The notes under the pieces: generated by a model
Told to the model about the DNA's origin: nothing
The model's database searches: none
Seen by the model: the letters and a program-made list of their open reading frames with translations, nothing else
Shown here: piece by piece, positions 52,646 to 59,009 of the stretch
How the letters are laid out: every line of letters starts with the position of its first letter
Numbering within the stretch: position 1 is the stretch's first letter
Source of the DNA: Thermoanaerobaculia bacterium
Lineage (GTDB): Bacteria > Acidobacteriota > Thermoanaerobaculia > Multivoradales > J023
DNA: 64,000 bases
Assembly (NCBI GenBank): GCA_030431255.1
Contig: JAUIJL010000007.1
Coordinates: forward strand, 186,001 to 250,000
Reading direction: 5' to 3'
Made by a program: the position numbers and the translations under genes

Positions 52646-53002
52646 TTATTGGACTTCGATGGGCTCGCCTTCGTCGACGATGCGGTCCAAGATCTGCTGG
52701 ATGTCGGGGGGCACGTTGCGGAAGGCGATGCCCATGCAGCAGCTCTCTTCGTCGAGGGCTTCGAGGTAGACCACGCTGCCGTAGATTTGCACCAACTCGG
52801 TGCCGAGCTGGAGGTCGAGAGACACCTTGGAGCGCAAGGGTAGGGGATGATGGAGCTCCAGCCGGAGCCCGCCGCGGGAGATGTTGAGGGTTCGGCCGGT
52901 GGCTAAATCCGCGCGGAAGCCCTCCTCGTCGAATCGACTGACCTGGACCAGGTTGATTTTGTCCACTCGCGTATCAATGCGTCGGTCGTCCGACAGGCTC
53001 AT
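52646..53002 (-). CDS. PilZ-domain protein
   Basis: 118 residues from an ATG at 53002 with AAGGAGA upstream. The c-di-GMP-binding motifs are present: an Arg-rich N-terminal block ('DRRIDTR', the RxxxR type) and 'NISRGGLRLEL' (the D/NxSxxG type). A beta barrel follows. A single-domain PilZ protein usually links c-di-GMP to motility, surface polysaccharide or secretion. It is convergent with the FG-GAP gene (11-base gap) and lies downstream of parC on the same strand. Confidence 0.85.
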   Translation of the reverse strand: MSLSDDRRIDTRVDKINLVQVSRFDEEGFRADLATGRTLNISRGGLRLELHHPLPLRSKVSLDLQLGTELVQIYGSVVYLEALDEESCCMGIAFRNVPPDIQQILDRIVDEGEPIEVQ

Positions 53003-53077: not shown

Positions 53078-55009
53078 CTACTCGACCTCAGGAGGCGCAC
53101 CGCGTCGGTGGACCTTGATCAGGCTCACCGGTTTCGGCGCCATCCGGCTGCCGCGGGCCGCCAAGCCACAGAAGCCCAGCTCACTCAGCTCATAGTAATC
53201 TTCCACCTTGCGCTGGCGCTTCTTGGGCACGAATTTCATGAAGATCTCATGCTGGGGCTCGCCGATCCAGAATTTGTCGATCTTGCCTGCACCGTCCTTG
53301 ATCAGCTCGTATTCCTTGTCCTTGATGAAACCGGTGATGCGGATTTTCTTGGCCCAGGGATTCTTGTCCGGATCGCGATAGATGTAGGTCAGCACCACCC
53401 CTTCGTCCGGATCGTGGGGCACGATGCCCAGCACCTTCTTGCCCACGAATAGCTTGTCGGGCGGGGAGATGACTTTGTAGGTGCCGTCGATGGAGATCAC
53501 CACGATCTTGTCGTACTCGGAGACGGTCATCTCGTATTCGTCACCCTTGACCTCGTAGCCGAAGAGCCCCGTCTCCTTGTCGAAGGAGAGCTTCAAAGTC
53601 TGACGCGCCACCTCTTGCTTCGAAACCGCCTCGAAGCTGGTGATCTGGGTCCGACGCGGGTATTGCGGGCCGAATTTCTCGATCAGCCCCTGCAAATACT
53701 CGATCGTCGTCTGGGTCAGGCGACGCAGCTGCCCGCGAACGTTCTTGATCTGGCGGACGATGTCGTCGATATCCTTCCGCGACTTTTCGATGTCGTAGAG
53801 GGAAATCCGCCGGATCGGAATCTTGAGCAGGCGATCCACGTCGTCGTCGACCATCGGCCGCACGAAGAATTCGGCATATTGGGCCATGCCGTCCCAGACC
53901 TCTTGACGCACCTCGTCGGCGGTTTTGGCCGTCTCAATGCGTTTGTAGACCCGGTTCTCGATGAAGATCTGCTCCAGGGTCAGCCAATGCTGCCGATCTT
54001 CCAGCTCCCCGAGCTCGAGCTCCAGCTCCGCCTTGATCTGCTGCTTCAGGCGACCGGTCAGATCCTTGAGCACCTGAGAAACCGTCAGCTCCTCCGGTCG
54101 CTGGTCGCGAATCACCACCAAATTCGAATTGATCGACACCTCGCATTGGGTGTAGGCGTAGAGCTGCGGCACCACCTCGTCCGCGTAGATGCCGCGGGAC
54201 AGGTGCAACACCACCTCCACCTTATCCGCCGTGCGATCGTCGATCGACGCCACCTTCAGCTTGCCCTTTTGGCTCGCCTGCTCAATCGACGCGATCAAGC
54301 TTTCGGTGGTGGTGGAGAAAGGAATTTCCCGCACCGTGATGGTTTTGCGATCTTTCGACGTCTCCAGGGTCGCCCGCACCCTGACCTTGCCCACACCGTC
54401 CTCATATTCCGACGCATCCATGGACGCGCCCTGGGGAAAGTCCGGCAGCAGCAAGATCTCGCGATCCTCGAGCAAGTCAATTTGCGCCTGCAACAACTCG
54501 CCGAAGTTGTGCGGCAGAATCCGGGTCGACATGCCGACCGCGATGCCTTCCGTGCCCAACATGAGCAACACCGGCAGCTTAGCGGGCAGAAATATCGGCT
54601 CGTCCTTACGGCCGTCGTAGCTCGGCTGATATTCCGTCAGCTTCTTATTGAAAAGGGTTTCTTTAGCCAGAGGCGTCAAGCGGCATTCGATATACCGCGC
54701 CGCCGCCGCCGGATGACCGGTCAGCACGCTTCCGAAATTACCCTGGCGCTCAATGAAATATTCTTTATTCGCCAGCACCACCAAAGCGTCACCGATCGAA
54801 GCATCACCGTGGGGATGCAGCTTCATGGTTTCGCCGATAATGTTGGCGACCTTGTGGAACCGGCCGTCATCCACCTCGAAGAGCGTATTCAAGATGCGTC
54901 GCTGCACCGGCTTGCAACCGTCCCGCAGGTCGGGAATGGCCCGGTCGACGATCACATAGCTGGCATACTCAAGAAAATTTTGCCGCATCAGCGGCTCGAC
55001 ATAACTCAT
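53078..55009 (-). CDS. parC: DNA topoisomerase IV (type IIA) subunit A
   Basis: 643 residues from the ATG at 55009. The breakage-reunion core is intact: 'ASYVIVDRAIPDLRDGCKPVQRR', in parts YVIVDRAIPDLRDG and KPVQRRIL, 'KLHPHGDASIGDAL', and the catalytic Tyr at residue 106 in 'PAAAARYIECRL'. The coiled-coil region and a C-terminal domain of only about 150 residues follow ('EYDKIVVISIDGTYKVI'). Usual ParC/GyrA proteins are 740-880 residues, so the DNA-wrapping domain is reduced. With ParE it relaxes and decatenates DNA. It is separated from parE by two genes that do not belong to the topoisomerase. Confidence 0.94.
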   Translation of the reverse strand: MSYVEPLMRQNFLEYASYVIVDRAIPDLRDGCKPVQRRILNTLFEVDDGRFHKVANIIGETMKLHPHGDASIGDALVVLANKEYFIERQGNFGSVLTGHPAAAARYIECRLTPLAKETLFNKKLTEYQPSYDGRKDEPIFLPAKLPVLLMLGTEGIAVGMSTRILPHNFGELLQAQIDLLEDREILLLPDFPQGASMDASEYEDGVGKVRVRATLETSKDRKTITVREIPFSTTTESLIASIEQASQKGKLKVASIDDRTADKVEVVLHLSRGIYADEVVPQLYAYTQCEVSINSNLVVIRDQRPEELTVSQVLKDLTGRLKQQIKAELELELGELEDRQHWLTLEQIFIENRVYKRIETAKTADEVRQEVWDGMAQYAEFFVRPMVDDDVDRLLKIPIRRISLYDIEKSRKDIDDIVRQIKNVRGQLRRLTQTTIEYLQGLIEKFGPQYPRRTQITSFEAVSKQEVARQTLKLSFDKETGLFGYEVKGDEYEMTVSEYDKIVVISIDGTYKVISPPDKLFVGKKVLGIVPHDPDEGVVLTYIYRDPDKNPWAKKIRITGFIKDKEYELIKDGAGKIDKFWIGEPQHEIFMKFVPKKRQRKVEDYYELSELGFCGLAARGSRMAPKPVSLIKVHRRGAPPEVE

Positions 55010-55084
55010 ACTTCTTCGACTCTCTTGTTCTCGCTACTTTCGGCCAATCCAATAGATCGACCCCTGACTGAGCCCCGGCTCGCA

Positions 55085-55762
55085 TCAAATATTTCCACCC
55101 AGCTCCTGCCAGGATTCGGTTAGCGCGCCAAAGCTCGGGATATGACCCGAGTCGGATCTCCGCTCGATCAATCTCCGGAAATGAGCTTCCCCCGAAAAGA
55201 ATTTCCCAGGTTTTGTCTTCGAGTATCTCTCATGAATATCCCGGGCAGCCGCCTTGAGGTATCGACCGTGAAATTGAGCCCGCGTCTCGAATCCCGGCGC
55301 ACAGGGTATATCTTCGGGGTCGTTCTCTGCAGCATCATAAAACGCCCGAAAGTTGACGAGCACCGGATCCTGAGCCTTTTGTCGATACAAACTCCGATCT
55401 CCAAGCAGCCAAGTCTCAATGCAGCAGTGTTGCACGATGGCAACCGGATGAAAGCTAGGACGAGAATGTGACTGTAGAAGCTTCGTAGCCTTCTCTTGAA
55501 CATCCGCAAGAGGCTCGTCCTCGGAGTCTAAACACAAGAAAAAGCCCGTCACCTCGACATTCCAATGATCCAAGTCCTCGACCACCTCGGGGATCCGATT
55601 GAAAATACCCGGCTGTCCCCCGCCGTTGATCAACCAATAGCCGTCACCTTGCCAATCCGCCGGATTCTCGACTTCTGGTAGGTCAGGAAAGGCGTAAGCC
55701 AGCCAGCGGCGGTAAAGCTTCGGTTCCGTCCGCCGACCTTCCAACAGGAAACACAGCCTCAA
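55085..55762 (-). CDS. TOPRIM-like (RloB/DUF4276-type) putative nuclease, partner of an AAA ATPase
   Basis: 225 residues from a TTG at 55762. This start overlaps the TGA of the upstream ATPase gene as TTGA, and a full AGGAGG lies 7 bases upstream inside the ATPase codons. Residues 8-14 read 'EGRRTEP' at the end of a beta strand and 76-83 read 'LCLDSEDE'. These are the Glu and Asp-x-Asp-like positions of a TOPRIM fold. 'IETWLLGDR' (about 115-123) matches the third conserved block of RloB/DUF4276 proteins. Function inferred: metal-dependent DNA or RNA cleavage controlled by the ATPase. I have no evidence for the specific target. Confidence 0.75.
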   Translation of the reverse strand: MRLCFLLEGRRTEPKLYRRWLAYAFPDLPEVENPADWQGDGYWLINGGGQPGIFNRIPEVVEDLDHWNVEVTGFFLCLDSEDEPLADVQEKATKLLQSHSRPSFHPVAIVQHCCIETWLLGDRSLYRQKAQDPVLVNFRAFYDAAENDPEDIPCAPGFETRAQFHGRYLKAAARDIHERYSKTKPGKFFSGEAHFRRLIERRSDSGHIPSFGALTESWQELGGNI

Positions 55763-56910
55763 CCCACGGCCTCCTGATATTCCGGTGCGTTGAGCAATTG
55801 GGTGAAGTGCTCCAAGCGAGAGGAACGCTGAAGAGACGGAATCTCACTGGCCGACCGCACCCGCACCCGGGAACCGTGGCGCGTGACCAGCTTCCAACGC
55901 CGCATGGGGATCTCGTTGATCACCCTAGGGTGATGGCTGGTGGCGATGAATTGGACTCGGTCGAGCCCTTCGAGCATGCGCTCCGCTACTTCCGGCAAAC
56001 AATTGATTCCCAAGCCGTTCTCCAGCTCGTCGATCAAGAAAACCGTGCCGTCGGGCGCCAGCGTGGTTTCGATGAGAAAAACCAATATCTTGAGCATGCC
56101 GGTGGACCAAGTCTTGTAGGTGATCCAGGGCTCGACTCCCTCTTCCCGCAATGCCAAAACGAGCTTCTCGGTCATGAAGTGCTCGTCTTGCCTCGGAACC
56201 ATCTTCAGCTCGTCGGGAGTAGCTACCCTGAGCTCTGAGACCCCCGGAAAAACATCCATGAAGTCTTCACACAATCGCGCGAACATCGCGGGATGATCTT
56301 TTTGCAGCACGTAGAGCTTTAAGAAGGGGCCCGAATGACTTTCCATCAGCTTGTCCAAGCTGCTAGCGAGGCTCATCCTCGTCTGCTCGGCTTCCGAGAC
56401 CGAGCTCACGGCCCCAAAGATCCAAAGCTCCTTCAGCTCTCTGAAACCTTCCAACATTTCAACGAACAACTCGAGCTCTGGCTCCTCCTCCAACAGGTAA
56501 ACCGCGCTGTCATGTCGATTCAACAACGGTAAAGCGCGCCCCTGGAATTGGAACGCGTCGACCATGCGATCCACCAGGATCTCGCCGTCCCGCTCGATTT
56601 TCTCCCAGACGATATGGCCGTCCGTTTCCGGCTCACGCACAGCGCTACCGCTGCGACGCCGAGAGTAGGTCACTCGCAGCTCACCATGCCACCGATACAC
56701 CTGCCCTTCGTGCCTCAGCCTCAGGTCCCAACGGCTGCTCGGCAGCTCAAACACGCCCCTGAGGGCGAGACGGCGAACGCTCAATAGGGCATCCAGAATC
56801 CGAGTTTTACCGACCCCCGACGGCCCCACCAGAAGGTTTAGGGCGTCGAATTCGACCGGCTCCAGCTTCCAACCGGTATCCAGGTCTTCATACTCAAAAG
56901 AGTGGATCAT
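55759..56910 (-). CDS. OLD/SMC-like AAA ATPase, first gene of a two-gene module
   Basis: 383 residues from the ATG at 56910. Walker A is GPSGVGKT (29-36), an ABC-signature-like loop 'WSTGMLKI' lies at about 268-275, Walker B is 'VFLIDELENGLG' (290-301) and the switch His is in 'FIATSHHPRVINEI' (321-334). This order is that of AAA_21/AAA_15 ATPases related to OLD and RecF. The N- and C-terminal parts flank a helical insertion (about 90-260). It starts 6 bases from the parE stop and is coupled to the TOPRIM-like gene. In the anti-phage literature such ATPases activate nuclease partners when they sense phage activity. Confidence 0.85.
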   Translation of the reverse strand: MIHSFEYEDLDTGWKLEPVEFDALNLLVGPSGVGKTRILDALLSVRRLALRGVFELPSSRWDLRLRHEGQVYRWHGELRVTYSRRRSGSAVREPETDGHIVWEKIERDGEILVDRMVDAFQFQGRALPLLNRHDSAVYLLEEEPELELFVEMLEGFRELKELWIFGAVSSVSEAEQTRMSLASSLDKLMESHSGPFLKLYVLQKDHPAMFARLCEDFMDVFPGVSELRVATPDELKMVPRQDEHFMTEKLVLALREEGVEPWITYKTWSTGMLKILVFLIETTLAPDGTVFLIDELENGLGINCLPEVAERMLEGLDRVQFIATSHHPRVINEIPMRRWKLVTRHGSRVRVRSASEIPSLQRSSRLEHFTQLLNAPEYQEAVG

Positions 56911-56915
56911 CGGAG

Positions 56916-58727
56916 TCAGACGACCTCGTGGATCAGGTTGTCGACAATGAATTCCTTGCGCTGGGGAGTATTCTTGCCCATGTAGAACTCAAGGGCTTTG
57001 GTGACCTCGGACATGGCGCGAACCCGGACTTGCTGAAGGCGAATGTCCTCGCCGATGAAGTTGTCGAATTCTTTGGGCGAGATCTCACCCAGGCCTTTGA
57101 ATCGAGTCACCTCCGGCCCGCGTAGGCGATCCATCGCTCGGTCTCGCTCTTTTTCCGAGTAGCAATAAATGGTTTCTTTTTTGTTGCGGACCCGGAACAG
57201 CGGCGTTTCCAAAATATACACATGACCCCGGGTGACCAGCTCCTCGAAATAGCGCAAGAAGTAGGTCAACAATAGGTTTCTAATGTGCATGCCGTCGACA
57301 TCGGCGTCGGTGGCGATCACCACGCGGTTGTAGCGCAGATCATCGATCGAGTCTTCGATGCCCAAGGCGCGCATGATGTTGTAGAGCTCTTCGTTTTTAT
57401 AGACGGCATCGCGCTTCAGGCCGAAGCAATTGAGCGGTTTTCCTTTGAGGGAAAAAATCGCTTGGGTGTCCACGTCCCGGCTTTGCACCATCGACCCACC
57501 CGCGGAATCACCCTCGGTCAGGAAGATGGTCGACTCGTCCTCCCGAGGCTTCTTCGACCCGAGGTGGATCTTGCAATCCATCAGCTTGGGAATGCGGATC
57601 GCCGTGGCCTTGGCCCGCTCGCGGGCCTTTTTCTTCACCGCCTGAAGCTCTTTGCGCAGCTTCTCGTTGGTTTCGATCTTTCGGATCACCTTTTCGGCGA
57701 TCTCGGGATTTTTGAGCAACCACAGCTGCACGGATTCCTTGACCGCCGGCACGATCCAGCCGCGCACGTCCGTTGAGCCGAGCTTATTCTTGGTCTGGCT
57801 TTCGAAAACCGGTTCCTGGATCTTCACCGCCACGGCGCCGATCAGGCCGTCGCGCACGTCAGGCCCGGCAAAGCTCTTTTTGGCAAATTCGTTGATGCCT
57901 TTGAGCAAGCCCTCGCGGAACGCGCTTTGGTGGGTGCCACCATCAGAGGTGTGCTGGCCGTTGACGAAGCTGAAATAGGTTTCGCCGTAATTATTGGTGT
58001 GGGTGAAGGCGAATTCCAGCCGATCCTGGCTTTGGTGCACCACGTCGTAGAGGCTTTCCTCTTCCCCCAGCTCTTCTTCCAGGAGGTCCTTGAGCCCGTG
58101 CTTCGACTTGAAGCTCTGACCGTTGTAAGCCACGGTCAGGCCGGTGTTCAGGAATGCGTAATAGCGCAGGCGGTGGTGGATCAGCTCGTCACGCCATTCG
58201 TACTCGCCGAAAATCTCCGGGTCGGGCCGAAACTCCACAAAGGTGCCGTTTTTCTCCGGCTCCTTGCCGCCTTTTTCGTCCTTGATCCGACCCTGGGCAA
58301 AGCGGGCGCGTTTGAATTTGCCGTCGCGCCAGCTGCACACCTCAAAGTGGTCGGAGAGGGCGTTCACCGCCTTGGTGCCGACGCCGTTCAGGCCCACCGA
58401 AAATTGGAAGACGTCGTCGTTGTATTTACCGCCGGTGTTGATCTTGGAAACGCAATCGACCACCTTGCCCAAGGGGATGCCGCGACCGTAGTCGCGAATT
58501 TGCATCAGCTCGCCGTCGCGTTTGATCTCGATGCGTTTGCCCACGCCCATGATGAACTCGTCGATGGAGTTGTCCACCACTTCCTTGAGCAGCACATAAA
58601 TACCGTCGTTGGGATTCGAGCCATTGCCCACCCGACCGATGTACATGCCCGTACGTTTTCGGATGTGGGTTAAGGCATCGAGAGTCTGGATTGCGTTTTC
58701 GTCGTAGAGCACGGCCTGCCGGGCCAT
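56916..58727 (-). CDS. parE: DNA topoisomerase IV (type IIA) subunit B
   Basis: 603 residues from the ATG at 58727 (AAGGAGAC upstream); an in-frame extension to 58880 is not conserved. GHKL ATP-binding blocks: 'EVVDNSIDEFIMG', 'IRDYGRGIPLGKV', 'VGLNGVGTKAVNAL'. The TOPRIM domain has 'LTEGDSAGGS' and 'ATDADVDGMHIRNLLL'. 'QTKNKLGS' marks the QTK loop. Length is as expected for the shorter ParE type. It drives ATP-dependent strand passage with ParC. The ATPase/TOPRIM pair and parC follow on the same strand, the first gene beginning 6 bases after the parE stop. Confidence 0.95.
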   Translation of the reverse strand: MARQAVLYDENAIQTLDALTHIRKRTGMYIGRVGNGSNPNDGIYVLLKEVVDNSIDEFIMGVGKRIEIKRDGELMQIRDYGRGIPLGKVVDCVSKINTGGKYNDDVFQFSVGLNGVGTKAVNALSDHFEVCSWRDGKFKRARFAQGRIKDEKGGKEPEKNGTFVEFRPDPEIFGEYEWRDELIHHRLRYYAFLNTGLTVAYNGQSFKSKHGLKDLLEEELGEEESLYDVVHQSQDRLEFAFTHTNNYGETYFSFVNGQHTSDGGTHQSAFREGLLKGINEFAKKSFAGPDVRDGLIGAVAVKIQEPVFESQTKNKLGSTDVRGWIVPAVKESVQLWLLKNPEIAEKVIRKIETNEKLRKELQAVKKKARERAKATAIRIPKLMDCKIHLGSKKPREDESTIFLTEGDSAGGSMVQSRDVDTQAIFSLKGKPLNCFGLKRDAVYKNEELYNIMRALGIEDSIDDLRYNRVVIATDADVDGMHIRNLLLTYFLRYFEELVTRGHVYILETPLFRVRNKKETIYCYSEKERDRAMDRLRGPEVTRFKGLGEISPKEFDNFIGEDIRLQQVRVRAMSEVTKALEFYMGKNTPQRKEFIVDNLIHEVV

Positions 58728-59009
58728 TTCGTCTCCTTCGGTAGCCAGTCGCCAAACCGGGCCTAATTCCCATGCGGGCGGCCCAAACCATAAAAATTCG
58801 TGCCGTTCAGGCGGTAGCGGACCGTCCCGTCCGCGACGCCAGAGGATACCCGGAGAAGCCTTGCGTCTCCAGGGCGGCACTCAGGCGGTAATTATAGCAG
58901 GAGCGTGGCATCGCACCAAAATTCGAGGGCCGACTCGGCCGCTGGGATAAAGTGGTAGTCAGTGCTCCTACCGACTTCCACCCGCGCACCCTGGAAGAAA
59001 GGACTCAGC

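Follow-up and report, generated by a model that had tools for sequence, protein, structure and literature searches.

Several described systems carry an ATPase and a TOPRIM-type effector on separate genes. AbiL of Lactococcus is a two-gene operon of this kind, with an ATPase (AbiLi) and a TOPRIM/RloB-like effector (AbiLii), and RloA/RloB are arranged in the same order. In PARIS the ATPase (AriA) and the TOPRIM protein (AriB) are likewise encoded apart; the system is defined by an AAA_15 or AAA_21 ATPase together with a DUF4435 effector (DUF4435 as named in the accessible part of PMC9122126), it is called Class 4 OLD in sections of PMC10568477 and PMC12796447, and its effector AriB is described as cutting tRNA (PMC12409363, in excerpt). 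HEC-01, a candidate system of PADLOC, also pairs a HEC-01A with a HEC-01B protein.

The gene pair considered here, A and B, lies between the topoisomerase IV genes parE and parC in a 64,000-nucleotide stretch of a Thermoanaerobaculia genome, the whole of which we call the window. With AbiL it shares its organisation, and all 54 aligned A sequences match AbiLi while 53 of 59 B sequences match AbiLii weakly; window B itself, however, has no AbiLii match at E 1, and a B profile at 1e-6 reached none of the five other phylum-sample genomes with a match to the AbiLii model. Gene order and a row of motifs (EGxxTE, DxD, CxExW) are common to A-B and RloA/RloB, and such a pair, an AAA_21 ATPase with an RloB above cut-off, is present in the window's own genome, but the similarity is low and the RloB model (PF13707) gives no match to window B at E 10. 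As in PARIS, the ATPase belongs to AAA_21, and AriA is the best match of the A profile among PDB sequences. Chain 8ux9_A, judged by length and partner to be probably AriB, compares with the B model at Z 6.4, a value within the range common for unrelated folds, and window B is without a match to the DUF4435 that characterises the PARIS effector. A matches HEC-01A and relatives of B match HEC-01B models weakly (up to 33 of 59 sequences, best 1.3e-7), unlike window B, which has no match; HEC-01 may overlap with the A-B family. Among split ATPase/TOPRIM systems A-B forms a separate family, a variant of a kind already known. According to the original prediction, made from the sequence, no described system is known to have this position. 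In the literature covered (most subscription journals and preprints lie outside it) we found no description of the A-B family or of a position between parE and parC, and no other case came up among the loci; the kind of system, on the other hand, was already on record.

The locus and its two proteins

The genes parE, A, B and parC follow each other in one direction on the minus strand (Table 1), in agreement with the original prediction. The overlap of A and B, the AGGAGG in the final codons of A and the 75 bases that separate B from parC were also recovered as first described. Only the distance between the parE stop and A had to be corrected, from six bases to five. The AGGAGG stands 7 bases ahead of the TTG start of B, and parC starts with ATG. 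Frames of both topoisomerase genes are intact despite the presence of A-B between them. ParE matched gyrB/parE models with scores below their cut-offs, and ParC scored above the curated one. Window ParE is 75-79% identical to that of six family relatives, which align only from residue 44-53 on, so the true parE start is probably near 58727 and not at 58880. Another gyrB-type gene is found elsewhere in the window's genome. A PilZ-domain gene (window 52646-53002) lies 75 bases past parC in the same direction, possibly on the same transcript.

Table 1. Features of the topoisomerase IV locus, with positions in the window.
Feature	Position	Strand	Support
parE, topoisomerase IV subunit B	56916..58880	-	NF004189/TIGR01059 best matches, below cut-off
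A, OLD/SMC-like ABC ATPase, 383 aa	55759..56910	-	AAA_21 8.4e-14; model pLDDT 89.5
B, RloB/AbiLii-like TOPRIM protein, 225 aa, TTG start	55085..55762	-	model pLDDT 96
TTGA, 4-base stop/start overlap of A and B	55759..55762	-	sequence
AGGAGG, ribosome-binding site for B in last codons of A	55770..55775	-	sequence
B-parC gap, 75 bases	55010..55084	-	sequence; no sigma-70-like promoter found
parC, topoisomerase IV subunit A	53078..55009	-	NF007209 816.6 bits, cut-off 644

Protein A had been read as an OLD/SMC-like ATPase, and all elements of that reading are present: Walker A (G29-T36), a signature (S269-T-G-M272), Walker B (I293-D294-E295) and the switch histidine (H326-H327). Residues G29, G34, K35, S269, G271, D294, E295, E297, H326 and H327 occur in 54/54 aligned sequences, the window's included. 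Window A reached 52.8 bits against AAA_21 of Pfam (cut-off 27), and its PADLOC matches were AriA (1.2e-15), AbiLi (4.9e-14), HEC-01A (6.1e-13) and also GajA and PtuA; at a threshold of 1e-5 AriA and AbiLi were each matched by all 54 A proteins. PDB sequences reached by the A profile were those of AriA and PtuA. The predicted A model compares best with PtuA chains from retrons and Septu (top Z 18.8, rmsd 4.1, 297 aligned), and Rad50/SMC heads as well as chains of the PARIS complex reach Z 16-17. Invariant key residues and a fold that compares with PtuA, Rad50 and PARIS chains at Z 16-19 mark A as an ABC/SMC-type ATPase.

Motif residues of B are E8, E13, D79-S-E81-D82, C114-x-E116 and Y180-x-K182, and the first three of these sites contain the TOPRIM-like glutamate and acidic motif noticed at the outset. 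E8, D79, C114, E116 and Y180 are present in 59/59 aligned sequences (window's included) and residue 81 is D or E in every one. In the TOPRIM arrangement a Glu stands right after strand 1 and D-x-[DE] at the end of strand 3; in the predicted model of B, E8 comes after strand 2-7 and D79 ends strand 73-79. The model thus has a TOPRIM-like fold, resembling the TOPRIM domains of the OLD family. Foldseek gave no PDB match at 0.001. With VIA-align the model was similar to PH0156 (2p62; Z 10.4, rmsd 4.0, 185 aligned), to the C-terminal region of OLD (6nk8; Z 8.7, rmsd 4.4, 173 aligned) and, at Z 5.2, to a small TOPRIM protein. A designed P-loop protein (Z 8.9) ranks beside the OLD domain, so part of this likeness is a common alpha/beta arrangement, and since Z below 8 is frequent among unrelated folds it is the motif row that carries weight for B as a TOPRIM protein. 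The invariance of C114, E116 and Y180, and the CxExW common to RloB, suggest that the active site of B may be wider than the classical TOPRIM one.

Database searches proposed for the two proteins succeeded for A and largely failed for window B. In Pfam at E 10 only DUF4276 (PF14103) was listed for B, at 17 bits against a cut-off of 30.2, and RloB and DUF4435 were not; the gathering cut-offs of RloB and DUF4276 were therefore not reached. In PADLOC there was no match at E 1, hence none to AbiLii or HEC-01B. Neither B nor its profile retrieved anything useful from the PDB sequences. Among the 59 B sequences, at a lax E of 0.1, RloB was matched by 46 and DUF4276 by 41 in addition to the AbiLii matches, the best of which was 4.1e-7. 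The B profile aligned with two RloB proteins across three motifs (E 1.5e-5, probability 80%) and weakly with a DUF4276 protein from the window's genome (E 0.027). Predicted folds, motifs, these weak but consistent family matches and the pairing of the genes all favour the split OLD-like ATPase/TOPRIM reading, in which B would be a nuclease whose activity is regulated by ATP.

A mobile pair with a likely role in defence

The set of relatives comprises 80 fetched loci, 74 of them from genomes, five from viral contigs and one from a phage record. A lies upstream of B, at most 600 bases away, in 79/80 (the remaining locus ends at a contig end), and the identical 4-base overlap is found in 47 of the 79 other pairs. 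The seven plasmid records with B are the same seven with A. Distances of A and B co-vary (Mantel r 0.865, 53 pairs, 0/2000 permutations). The alignments exclude near-copies and also, from a set of 79 loci, 7 B and 6 A frames that were missing or had an odd length. Distant relatives of both frames found together, with motifs invariant or almost so, indicate that the pair is more than chance. Some copies of the pair are broken or cut. In the record of the Proteus terrae plasmid NZ_CP152081.1 the annotation splits A into two overlapping genes and gives one B protein twice; this module is broken and duplicated. At another locus (L061:7098-9061) a further AAA_15/AAA_21 ATPase gene comes directly after the pair, next to a 235-aa frame that has no Pfam match, and two such ATPase/effector modules may stand there in tandem.

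The distribution of the pair is patchy. B was found in 2/297 sampled genomes of the host phylum, the window's included, and by family profile in 2/247; within the window's family it is present in one of seven genomes and absent from the six others. An initial genome scan that used one B sequence as its query gave no match. Relatives of the pair occur on plasmids, phages and chromosomes of many phyla; the B tree has 13 phylum labels, one of them archaeal, many of the records being metagenome bins that possibly include stray contigs. In the tree window B stands apart from the two other Acidobacteriota, but the AU test is borderline (p 0.0497 for B and 0.0521 for A) and the window branch is long and of odd composition. 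The composition of A-B is only mildly unusual: B has a GC of 0.54 and a GC3 of 0.58 and A a GC3 of 0.73, and across 39 window genes GC3 averages 0.72 (sd 0.08). No bracketing repeats of at least 10 bases were found around the insert. The same 10 Mb genome holds four more modules in which an AAA_21 ATPase neighbours an RloB or DUF4276 protein (L126, L127, L128 and L129, on contigs C42, C17, C27 and C26, respectively). Three of their four effectors pass the Pfam cut-off and the one on C26 is below it; none of the four matches the A-B family, B having a single match in the whole genome. With at least five such modules in one genome, the window pair looks more like part of a general stock of defence genes than like a partner of the topoisomerase.

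In all five viral contigs the pair stands beside a portal gene, or is a copy of one so placed. In L118 and L119 it lies between gpA and the portal gene of P2-like phages; L119, L120 and L121 represent a single element (across the region L120 is 98% identical to L119, and L121 fully so), and in L117 the portal and terminase side is visible and gpA was not seen. The gpA-gpQ slot of P2-like phages is presented as an anti-phage hotspot, occupied by old and tin in P2, in the available text of Rousset et al. (PMC9122126). For flanking genes, 148 ORFs were sampled randomly out of the 328 that measure 100-900 aa and lie no further than 3.5 kb away in 63 loci. PADLOC at 1e-10 matched 186 families on them, the commonest among the families listed on five ORFs, and the Pfam families were of ATPase, phage and housekeeping types, among those listed none in more than 5/148. 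By PADLOC, defence genes are thus inconspicuous in these flanks, which speaks neither for nor against defence islands. A PADLOC scan of the 47 other window ORFs gave no match.

From these results we consider it probable that A-B is a horizontally acquired, mobile two-gene anti-phage module of the AbiL/RloAB/PARIS kind, in which A holds B until infection and B then cuts nucleic acid. Most likely A, as an SMC/OLD-like ATPase, would form an ATP-bound assembly that senses infection and keeps B inactive. On infection B, a putative metal-dependent TOPRIM nuclease, would be released or switched on and would cut nucleic acid, tRNA or DNA, so that growth stops before the phage is finished. A role in defence is likely on the grounds given above. 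Also in favour of this reading are the toxicity in E. coli reported for AbiLii of Fusobacterium (PMC3985639) and an RloB-like TOPRIM toxin (D44) with an AAA protein among the validated toxin-antitoxin pairs in the accessible part of PMC10440598, where RloB is related to OLD TOPRIM domains and AbiLii. Against it, the Fusobacterium AbiLi failed to neutralise its AbiLii and the Lactococcus AbiLii was non-toxic in E. coli (PMC3985639), and in PMC10440598 the sole pair with an AAA antitoxin that was screened on coliphages, its toxin being a different one, conferred no protection.

The pair could also be a toxin-antitoxin or addiction module, with B as toxin and A as antitoxin, that stabilises itself or its plasmid and for which phage defence is secondary or absent. 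Presence on plasmids and the stop/start coupling of A and B are in accordance with this, as are the related TOPRIM_OLD/AAA pairs listed among the toxin-antitoxin pairs of PMC10440598. The size of the ATPase, its complete catalytic motifs and the position in the P2 hotspot suit a sensor better, the Fusobacterium AbiLi did not act as an antitoxin to its AbiLii, and we regard this explanation as unlikely. Still less probable is a function of A-B in DNA maintenance, as an OLD/Rad50-like ATPase with a nickase in repair or the cell cycle, of the sort reported for archaeal Cran1. The likeness of A to Rad50/SMC heads is about as good as that to PtuA, and Cran1 appears, in the sections of PMC12796447 available, to be an OLD protein without a defence role, but the patchy and mobile occurrence of the pair, on plasmids and phages and in so few genomes of its phylum and family, argues against it.

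The parE-parC junction and transcription of the pair

The position of the pair had led to the proposal of a functional tie to the topoisomerase or to DNA topology, and a survey of parE-parC gaps in relatives bears directly on it. The pair is absent and the junction closed in 5/5 readable relatives, with gaps of 133, 21, 4, 4 and 65 bases (last parE codon to parC start, stop codon included) that by eye are unlike the window's sequence; in a sixth relative the contig ends after parE and the junction is out of the count. The simplest reading would be that the insertion between parE and parC happened in the window's lineage. Among the 80 other loci, parE/parC-like genes were found near the pair (threshold 1e-8) in one, a Spirochaetes bin, where a parE 59% identical to that of the window lies two genes upstream of the pair and there is no parC-like match in the locus (L102:3980-10690). 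The gene between them reads by eye like a chemotaxis receptor. Gyrase B-type genes number about two per 5 Mb by estimate, so some 0.4 are expected in the 1.08 Mb that the flanks of the loci total, and this single parE is taken as chance.

A guard role, in which the pair would watch over topoisomerase IV or DNA topology and owe its place in the operon to that task, is therefore very improbable: its seat inside the operon and the Spirochaetes parE favour the idea, but only one of the seven family genomes has B, the junction is closed in every readable relative, and the one parE near another copy is non-adjacent, separated by the putative receptor gene, and close to what chance would give. Nor is the pair conserved beside topoisomerase IV genes, as an accessory gene would be. 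Since its relatives are found on plasmids and phages, in many phyla and next to unrelated genes, the odd place of the pair inside the topoisomerase operon is probably a landing site and no sign of a tie to the topoisomerase. It is equally hard to credit that the insertion was kept as a wiring of an infection-activated nuclease to topoisomerase IV expression, such that a phage hitting topoisomerase IV would make the shared transcript fail, unbalance A and B and free B, which would guard the topoisomerase in the window's species.

The mobile defence module favoured here would, having landed past the parE stop in the window's lineage, probably be transcribed from the topoisomerase IV promoter. 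A promoter shared with the topoisomerase was part of the original prediction and is plausible. The upstream neighbour is co-directional with the pair in 50/71 loci and the downstream neighbour in 33/73 (Fisher p 0.0025, with crude gene calls); with 15 near-copies removed by eye the counts are 43/57 and 28/58 (p 0.004), and with neighbours below 120 aa also dropped 29/36 and 20/38 (p 0.014). Since the upstream neighbour is the more often co-directional one, the pair may use host promoters, here that of topoisomerase IV, and that the cassette lives on host transcripts is a fair hypothesis. Upstream neighbours at most 110 bases from the pair include, as we read them, lepA, nuoN, glutamate synthase and wecB genes. 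At one locus (L093) an ABC/MacB gene pair starts 1 base after B, and the gene on the other side of the pair is one that we read as HlyD-like. No promoter-like site was found within the module, which is in favour of a shared promoter; against it stands a terminator-like site across the parE/A junction, with another in the parC start. Neither scan beats chance when compared with shuffles (1 found and 2.0 expected; 9 found and 6.8 expected).

The results point to A and B as a distinct and widespread ATPase/TOPRIM family, found under 13 phylum labels, on plasmids and in P2-like phages, the effector of which is missed or weakly scored by the models used. Such a cassette can sit in a topoisomerase operon with the reading frames unbroken. 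The case also shows that a conspicuous gene next door says little about function before the empty site has been sought in relatives. The surplus of upstream genes in the same direction suggests that these cassettes may live on host transcripts, which would be one way for defence genes to be expressed outside defence islands.
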